From Deltaproteobacteria bacterium (GTDB lineage Bacteria > Desulfobacterota > Deferrimicrobia > Deferrimicrobiales > Deferrimicrobiaceae), in contig JACRCO010000009.1 in NCBI GenBank assembly GCA_016218975.1, forward strand, positions 1-64,000: 64,000 bases of DNA, given 5' to 3'. A model generated the notes under the pieces. That model worked only from the letters and a program-made list of their open reading frames with translations, was not told the DNA's origin and did not search any database. Shown here one piece after another: positions 20,051 to 63,309 of this stretch (position 1 is its first letter; every line of letters begins with the position of its first letter). Both the position numbers and the translations under genes were made by a program.

Positions 20051-20147
20051 CAGGGACGGTCCTGATGCCTCCTGTTGATTTATACATGCCGGTTGGATAA
20101 CCAGTATACTACTCTACTGAAGAGAGTCCTCACTCAGGACCGTCCCT
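20051..20147. repeat. 97-bp dispersed repeat with 14-bp terminal inverted repeats, copy B
   Basis: Same ends as copy A (perfect inverted repeat 20052-20065 with 20134-20147) and the same total length. The conserved middle includes GTTGxATAACCAG and AGAGAG. It fills almost the whole space between the ndk terminator and the rlmN start, so the rlmN promoter and leader must lie in or beside it. Confidence 0.85.
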
Positions 20148-20157
20148 ATAACATAAC

Positions 20158-20196
20158 AAAAAACCCCGGCGCGTCATGGATCGACGCGCCGGGGTT
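20158..20196 (-). terminator. Intrinsic terminator after ndk
   Basis: AACCCCGGCGCGTC (20162-20175) pairs perfectly with GACGCGCCGGGGTT (20183-20196) over a 7-nt loop. On the minus strand it is followed by six Ts. It ends the mdh-to-ndk unit. Confidence 0.93.
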
Positions 20197-20221
20197 GTTG
20201 CATCGGATATGATGTATTGCT

Positions 20222-20656
20222 TTACGATACTATATCCAATCTACTGAAAAAATAGCATATTTCTGTCGCAGCCGTTTCCGGGGCGTCGGAGCCGTGCACA
20301 ATATTACGCTCGATGCTTCCGGCGAAGTCGGCGCGTATCGTCCCCTTGTCCGCCTTCGAGGGATCGGTCGCTCCCATGATCTTGCGGTTCCTGGCGATCA
20401 CGTCCTCCCCTTCGAGCACCATCACCACGATAGGTCCCGAAGACATGAAATCGGTCAGGGAGGAGAAGAACGGGCGCTCCCGGTGGACCGCATAGAACCC
20501 TTCCGCCTGTTTCCTGCTCAGATGGAGCATCCTCATGGCGACGATCCGGATGCCTTCCTTCTCGAACCGGCGGATCACCTCTCCGACGATGCCATCAGCG
20601 ACCCCGTCAGGCTTGACGATGGAGAGGGTGCGTTCTTTAGCCGTTACTTTCGTCAT
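20222..20656 (-). CDS. ndk: Nucleoside diphosphate kinase
   Basis: Transfers phosphate between nucleoside tri- and diphosphates through a phosphohistidine. 144 residues with the full family pattern: [12 protein letters not shown] at the N terminus, [17 protein letters not shown] with the catalytic His in NIVHGSD, and EICYFF near the C terminus. It closes the mdh-sucCD-kor cluster 11 bp after korC. The location is sensible because succinyl-CoA synthetase generates NTP that Ndk redistributes. Confidence 0.97.
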
Positions 20657-20667
20657 GTGGTACGTCC

Positions 20668-21216
20668 TCAGTTCATCTTCGTCTTGGCCATGTCGTAGCC
20701 GGCCCGGAGGGCTTTCTTGTTCATCTCCTCGGTTCCTTTCGGAACCCGCGACAGAACCGCCTTTTCCACCGATTCGATCGTCACTTTACCCGTCAGGGCC
20801 GTGATGGCTCCCAAGGCGACGATGTTGGCGACGAAAGCCTTCCCTATCTCCTCGGATGCCGTCCGGATGATAGGCATCTTGATCACCTTGAAGCTACCCG
20901 CAGGGATAGTTTTGACGAAATCCTCGTCTACGAGCAGCGTTCCGTCGGCCTTTATGTCCTTGTAATATTTGGTGCACGACTCCTGCGTAAGCGAAAGCTG
21001 GAGGTCGATCGCCTGGGCCTTCGGGAAGTCGATCGTCTGGTCGGAAATGATGACTTCCGACTTGGACGCGCCGCCGCGGGCCTCGGGGCCGTATGATTGG
21101 CTCTGGACCGCGTTGATCTTGTCGTAGATCGTCGCGGCCTCGGCGAATATGACACCAGCCAGGATCAGGCCCTGGCCTCCCGAACCGGAAAAACGGATTT
21201 CGTAACGTTCGCTCAT
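20668..21216 (-). CDS. korC: 2-oxoacid:ferredoxin oxidoreductase gamma subunit
   Basis: Gamma chain of the four-subunit CoA-dependent 2-oxoacid:ferredoxin oxidoreductase. 182 residues, with the characteristic [20 protein letters not shown] start, [18 protein letters not shown], and the central [13 protein letters not shown]. It follows korB with a 6-bp gap. In this gene context the substrate is most probably 2-oxoglutarate, making succinyl-CoA and reduced ferredoxin, or the reverse for CO2 fixation. Confidence 0.93.
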
Positions 21217-62607: not shown

Positions 62608-63189
62608 TTACAACGGAATCGCGGCATAAGGTTCGGCCCGACGCGTCCACTCGCTCTGAGGATATTTCGCCTTCAATGTTTCGTAGGCCTGGCGCAGTTC
62701 CTTCGCCTCATGGGAGTGCTTGTACCCGGCGACACCGAGATGGAACACCGCTTCCGGCGCCGGACCCGCGTCCGGGTGGCGTTCGATGACGGTCTTGAAC
62801 TGCATGATCGCTTCCGCCATCCGGTCGGTGTCGAAAAATATCTTTCCGAGTCCGAGTCCGAGGTTGGATATTAGATCGTCGGTCGGCACGTACCCCATGA
62901 ACCGGTGATGTTCCTTGCCGTCGGCATCGAGAACGACGAACGTCGGCGTCCATTTGATACCGAACCTCTCCATAGGCCCGGTAGGCTTGTCCCAGAAACA
63001 CTGGCTTCGTAAAGGGATGAACTGTTCCTGGATGAACTTCTGGACCTTCGCGTCGGAATACGGACCCGTATTCATCCTGGCGCAGCCGAGTCAGCCGTCG
63101 AACCAGAAATCCAGGAAAACCGGGGTCCCCGTTTGCCGCGCCCTGGCGAGCGCGGAGTCGAAATCACGTTCCCAGGCGATCTCCCCCAT
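62608..63189 (-). CDS. Candidate selenoprotein: thioredoxin-like (U-x-x-C) with TPR-like C-terminal region
   Basis: The frame starts at the ATG at 63189, with AAGGAGG five bases upstream, and reads MGEIAWERDFDSALARARQ through TPVFLDFWFDG to a TGA (63091-63093, codon 33). The same frame then continues as LGCARMNTGPYSDAKV to a stop at 62608. If the TGA is selenocysteine the product is 193 residues, with U-L-G-C exactly where the thioredoxin CxxC belongs, after the LDFW strand. cis-Pro loop WTPTFVVLDADG is present. Residues about 120-193 are helical TPR-like. A SECIS-like hairpin follows the TGA. Without read-through the N-terminal 32 codons are useless and the rest lacks its first redox residue. 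Confidence 0.8.
63056..63093 (-). promoter_or_regulatory. Putative bacterial SECIS element after the in-frame UGA
   Basis: On the minus strand, 17 nt after the UGA (63091-63093), GAATACGGGTCCGTATTC (63073-63056) folds into a 6-7 bp stem with GGUC in the apical loop. The E. coli fdhF SECIS has AGGUCU in its loop. The distance from UGA to loop (about 23 nt) is in the known bacterial range. Confidence 0.7.
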
Positions 63190-63309
63190 CGCACCCTCCT
63201 TTTCGCAAATTTTTTAGCAATGCGAAAAGGTATGATGCGAAACCGAGGTCGGTTGTTTCCTGGTGGATCTGCGCCTCTCACCCAGGTCCGGATGGCGGGA
63301 CAAGCCGAC

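Follow-up and report, generated by a model that had tools for sequence, protein, structure and literature searches.

A thioredoxin-like protein with a TPR-like tail from a deltaproteobacterium, very probably carrying a UGA-encoded selenocysteine ahead of a covarying SECIS hairpin

A selenocysteine (Sec)-containing 'thiol:disulfide interchange protein' was predicted in Syntrophus aciditrophicus, Geobacter metallireducens and G. uraniireducens (Zhang et al., 2006; PMC1794560). A 2026 review (PMC13188914, citing its reference 12) assigns this Sec family to PF13098, with the active-site motif UxxC and WP_011366075.1 as representative. From short metagenomic reads, the GOS study (PMC2398784) described, at the level of domains, a UxxC class named 'Trx-like 2 (Thiol disulfide interchange protein)' (cd02953). 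Another relative in layout is the cytosolic protein CnoX/YbbN, with an N-terminal thioredoxin domain and a C-terminal TPR domain; according to the available part of the source (PMC8129009), EcCnoX has SxxC and CcCnoX has CxxC in place of UxxC, and that part of the text does not describe Sec for CnoX. Sec-bearing or related thioredoxin-7-like domains also occur in the VPGUxxT proteins, the Trx7/PDZ (seleno)proteins and TsoB (NF041383, NF041199 and NF045694).

We compared these systems with a gene in the window, by which we mean the whole 64,000-nucleotide stretch of deltaproteobacterial DNA analyzed here. The features of the locus, all on the minus strand, are as follows.

62608..63189, minus strand: selenoprotein coding sequence, 193 amino acids with Sec at position 33, open but for the TGA; DsbD-gamma/Thioredoxin_7-like domain and short TPR-like tail
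63195..63202, minus strand: Shine-Dalgarno sequence, a AAAGGAGG-type ribosome binding site, with AAGGAGG a short way upstream of the ATG
63091..63093, minus strand: TGA codon 33, read as Sec, first residue of U-x-x-C; the column is conserved, with TGC or TGT in Cys orthologues
63082..63084, minus strand: codon of the resolving Cys36, second conserved residue of U-x-x-C, invariant in 50 aligned sequences
63056..63073, minus strand: bSECIS hairpin, 7-bp stem and GGUC apical loop (loop 63066-63063), a covarying helix that Cys forms have lost or keep in degraded form
62869..63177, minus strand: thioredoxin-fold domain, residues 5-107, WTP/cis-Pro motif at 80-82 (PF13899, 42.6 bits; PF13098, 42.3 bits; 1vrs_E)
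62620..62883, minus strand: C-terminal TPR-like tail, helical throughout, at residues 103-190 (TPR_6 at 24.3 bits, under the cut-off; helix prediction)

The original prediction, a U-x-x-C selenoprotein, rested on a frame open on both sides of a TGA at codon 33, at the first Cys of a CxxC, and on a strong AAGGAGG. Sequence and translation agree with it: the minus-strand frame from 63189 to 62608 reads LDFWFDG-U-LGCARM around the TGA, which occupies the position of the first, nucleophilic Cys in the CxxC of thioredoxins, and AAGGAGG is present just 5' of the ATG. The selenoprotein reading was further supported by the conserved TGA column, Cys homologues, a covarying hairpin and the sel genes of the host.

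The coding sequence aligned with its relatives over its entire length at 33-83% identity. A search of 99 genomes of relatives returned full-length homologues, from 82% identity at the top to about 35% at the bottom, and almost every one has a single TGA; on alignment, the TGA codons fell in a single column and C36 was invariant. Scanning GTDB genomes gave 169 relatives, 80 of which were kept (80 named loci on 80 contigs), and every one of these 80 loci from other genomes carries TGA in the codon-33 column. They come from Desulfobacterota and Geobacteraceae, among other groups, and their sources include deltaproteobacterial MAGs, Geobacter sp. AOG1 and Geomobilimonas luticola, as well as MAGs labelled Nitrospirota, Poribacteria and Planctomycetota. 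Across the phylum (395 genomes), TGA was present in about 79 of 90 full-length matches, as counted from the listing, and the single TAG among the phylum matches is a terminal stop. The family comprises more than 100 loci from anaerobes. The in-frame UGA aligns with the Cys of homologues, as expected of a bacterial selenoprotein. Viral contigs encoded no relative and plasmids gave only distant thioredoxin-domain matches, so that no sign of mobility was seen.

Downstream of the TGA, a hairpin that begins after 17 nt and has a GGUC loop had been proposed, and it is there: GAATACGGGTCCGTATTC starts 17 nt past the TGA, pairs as GAAUACG-GGUC-CGUAUUC with a 7-bp stem at 63073-63056, and places the start of its apical loop 24 nt past the TGA. 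Stem length, loop and distance from the UGA agree with the published bSECIS model. For the accompanying argument, that such an arrangement is unlikely by chance, the evidence is comparative. The hairpin alone is ordinary, with a single-sequence folding energy of -7.0 kcal/mol versus -6.27 for shuffles (z = -0.35), and the case was therefore decided by comparison of homologues, in which the TGA column, covariation and a freeze of synonymous sites all bore the argument out.

In an alignment of 68 distinct sequences, 98.5% of the cells of the helix (columns 21-26 with 33-38) are paired and 26 cells are changed on both sides, mainly from G-C to A-U and from A-U to G-C, a result reached by none of 500 shuffles. 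Pairing stayed below 64% of cells in every slid control, and RNAalifold recovered the same helix unaided. Loop positions 1-2 carry a G in all 103 distinct sequences. In ten close relatives, the five variable hairpin codons (40-44) showed synonymous differences in 0 of 225 comparisons, versus 38.9% elsewhere, whereas codon 45, whose third base lies one base beyond the stem, varied freely at that base (24/45). The frozen codons beside a free one tell RNA constraint apart from protein constraint. A whole-genome search with Rfam SECIS_1 (RF00031) gave no match; control genomes likewise gave none, and the search is hence uninformative.

The genome that holds the window has the Sec machinery. We found selA (E 4.6e-171), selB (544 amino acids seen, the gene running off the contig end), tRNA-Sec (selC) with anticodon UCA (tca), and a Sec-type selD with its own in-frame TGA in LSSCAGUASK. 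The SelD locus (L154; G000:C3, about 20088-20882, minus strand) has its TGA in the active-site motif LTHLSSCAGUASKLGQG, and SelD is a probable second selenoprotein of this genome. Each of the 75 TGA genomes tested has selB, tRNA-Sec or both. Four genomes have neither (G011, G216, G388 and G298), and all four carry non-Sec forms; three of them belong to one genus, and about two independent losses underlie the correlation. Some genomes of the phylum have a second selB adjoining a second, divergent tRNA-Sec (G025:C163:452-2344 and 2399-2487; G053:C11:19880-21882; G123:C1:1461214-1463225).

On this evidence we put the probability that UGA codon 33 of the window gene encodes Sec at about 96%. An altered code, with UGA decoded as Trp, Cys or Gly, would also put in-frame UGA codons within conserved proteins, but adjacent ORFs in the window terminate normally, TGA occurs at only one codon of the gene, the full set of Sec factors is present and the SECIS-like helix covaries; we consider a code change very improbable and set it aside on the normal stops nearby and the Sec machinery. 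Most improbable is a genuine stop or a sequencing error at the TGA, leaving a pseudogene or a gene that begins at ATG 63075 (155 amino acids, the TPR part only): a mechanical ORF does start at this in-frame internal ATG (62608-63075), and the window protein stays below the cut-off of every NCBIfam model, but the identical TGA recurs across dozens of independent assemblies, the sequence ahead of it has conserved residues (W6, D27 and F28), clean Cys orthologues read through the same site, and the hairpin covaries.

Orthologues with Cys aligned at the TGA also show what becomes of the hairpin. In L023, from the same family (genome G011), the codon is TGC and the helix is broken; in L034 it is TGC and the helix is absent. 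In one Geobacteraceae genus, 14 Cys rows have TGC or TGT and retain 2-4 of 6 stem pairs, whereas their Sec relatives mostly have 6/6. A quick tree, with weak support for its deep branches and an uncertain root, calls for four or more switches between Sec and non-Sec. Three non-Sec groups (L023, L034 and the 14-row clade) are nested in Sec branches, which suggests replacement in the direction from Sec to Cys.

Two further groups of relatives were noted. Family f59 (L161-L169) consists of distant Trx-TPR relatives, mostly with C-x-x-S or with degenerate or lost motifs (L164 has CGGC), and the Sec machinery is retained in some of their genomes; its members were treated as a distant non-Sec branch and not counted among the clean Cys orthologues. 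One Geobacteraceae genome holds a copy of the window gene's subtype (L189, G438:C43:35782-36351; FLDFWFKGULGCQAMNTGPYSE) with 20 nt of SECIS identical to that of the window gene, next to a TGA-bearing member of the other subtype elsewhere in the same genome (G438:C42), and this pair is likely to reflect horizontal transfer or an old paralogue.

With respect to the known families, the window protein combines a PF13098 domain with UxxC, and it shares Pfam domain, motif and clade with the Sec family described above. Genome G435, which we take to be Geobacter uraniireducens Rf4, has 11 PF13098 matches, and the sole TGA-bearing one is the orthologue of the window gene. The family is therefore very probably the 'thiol:disulfide interchange protein' Sec family already predicted in three species some twenty years ago, the likeness being drawn through the domain, the motif and the G. 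uraniireducens gene. The original prediction had called the selenoprotein new. For the family as a whole this does not hold, as it very probably equals the PF13098 UxxC family of Zhang et al. (2006); the window gene is a new member. The TPR tail, the covarying SECIS and the breadth of the family are not mentioned in the descriptions of the PF13098 UxxC family (PMC1794560, PMC13188914).

The GOS class is likened to the window protein by its name and its UxxC motif; its domain, cd02953, is that of DsbD-gamma, which is also the solved fold closest to the window protein. The similarity to NF041383, NF041199 and NF045694 is weak (20-37 bits versus cut-offs of 275-805), and motif context and architecture differ. 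No NCBIfam model reached its cut-off for the window protein or other members; as no curated model recognizes the family, its members are probably truncated or missed in annotation.

The window protein looks cytosolic and consists of a DsbD-gamma-like thioredoxin domain followed by a short TPR tail. Thioredoxin_7 and Thioredoxin_2 of Pfam score above cut-off (PF13098, 42.3 bits versus a cut-off of 27). The ordinary thioredoxin model TIGR01068 (18.7 bits versus 96.8) and the DsbD model (32.2 bits versus 330) fall short of theirs; we therefore rejected classification as either, only the gamma-like domain being common to the window protein and DsbD. DsbD sits in the membrane and has its gamma domain in the periplasm, whereas inspection of the window protein revealed no evident signal peptide or transmembrane part. 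The C-terminal extension, predicted earlier as TPR-like, is real: TPR_6 scores just under the Pfam cut-off here (24.3 versus 26.3 bits) and is matched by 16 of 22 members, and helices are placed at 103-120, 124-137, 144-159, 163-175 and 180-190. The AlphaFold model (mean pLDDT 97.2) shows a thioredoxin fold followed by five to six C-terminal helices. Among PDB structures, the thioredoxin domain matched DsbD-gamma (1vrs_E) with a TM-score of 0.81 normalized by target. The top Foldseek match by E-value was YbbN/CnoX (3qdn, 3qou), with the same two-domain order, although the whole-chain superposition was poor (rmsd 11-12 A, TM-score 0.43 normalized by query).

Near the window gene, methylmalonyl-CoA mutase is encoded on the upstream side, and BirA and CoaX on the downstream side; the mutase and BirA are not redox proteins. 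Other lineages differ. In eight Desulfobulbales-type loci (L062, L068, L071, L072, L074, L081, L088 and L093) a same-strand gene for a TrxR-like flavoprotein with a CxxC, motif FTC(V/I)DCDGY, follows the selenoprotein gene at a distance of 40-120 bp; in L058 and L066 such a gene is close by but convergent, and in L114 and L121 a desulfoferrodoxin gene is adjacent to the selenoprotein gene. The TrxR-like and desulfoferrodoxin neighbours suggest a role in redox or oxygen-stress housekeeping. A search of the window's genome for the TrxR-like gene gave no match at E <= 1e-20, and with local neighbours that are not redox genes, we infer partner and substrate from other lineages. The TrxR-like neighbour itself, of about 296 amino acids with CVDCDGY (L062:2807-3679, L072:5670-6560 and equivalents), scores 112-130 bits versus 343 for TrxR and is possibly a divergent reductase family of its own.

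Under the proposed mechanism, SelB bound to the hairpin would deliver Sec-tRNA at the UGA. In the protein, the Sec selenolate would attack a disulfide or oxidized thiol of a partner, Cys36 would resolve the selenenyl-sulfide, and an NAD(P)H-dependent reductase would recycle the protein; the TPR-like tail probably docks the partner protein. The physiological role, much less certain than Sec coding, may be that of a general, thioredoxin-like thiol reductase, to which we give about an even chance.

Given Sec, a somewhat less probable role is that of a reductase dedicated to one specific partner, for example a peroxiredoxin-like enzyme or desulfoferrodoxin, with the reductase itself being recycled by the adjacent TrxR-like flavoprotein. 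The same-strand and convergent TrxR-like genes and the desulfoferrodoxin genes adjoining two members are consistent with it, but only part of the family has such neighbours, none of them lies near the window gene, and the window's genome yielded no TrxR-like protein.

Less likely again, given Sec, is a seleno-chaperedoxin of the CnoX/YbbN type, whose tail would hold unfolded clients or pass them to GroEL while Sec protects or repairs the oxidized cysteines of these clients. The analogy draws on the YbbN/CnoX fold match with its N-Trx and C-TPR order, on the desulfoferrodoxin neighbours in L114 and L121, and on Caulobacter CnoX, which joins CxxC redox activity with holdase function (PMC8129009, available part). 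The poor whole-chain superposition and the DsbD-gamma-like character of the thioredoxin domain itself argue against it, and so does the tail: the CnoX TPR domain is larger, with two five-helix subdomains in EcCnoX according to the same part of that source, against one short helical block here. Equally doubtful, in our estimate, is the fuller version in which a cytosolic Trx-TPR seleno-chaperedoxin of anaerobes has Sec where CnoX has Ser or Cys and is served by a lineage-specific flavoprotein reductase, with Sec ancestral and repeatedly replaced by Cys as the SECIS decays.

Returning to the selenoprotein reading, the locus is a solid case of Sec coding with unusually clear SECIS covariation. 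What is new here, relative to the sources cited, is the window's member, the scale of the family, the TPR tail, the covarying and evolving SECIS and the repeated Cys replacement. The Sec and Cys sister clades of the Geobacteraceae form a natural experiment on Sec replacement. The Trx-TPR layout, with TrxR-like and desulfoferrodoxin neighbours, makes the function directly testable, and our best guess is that the protein serves reductive, oxygen-stress-related housekeeping in anaerobes.
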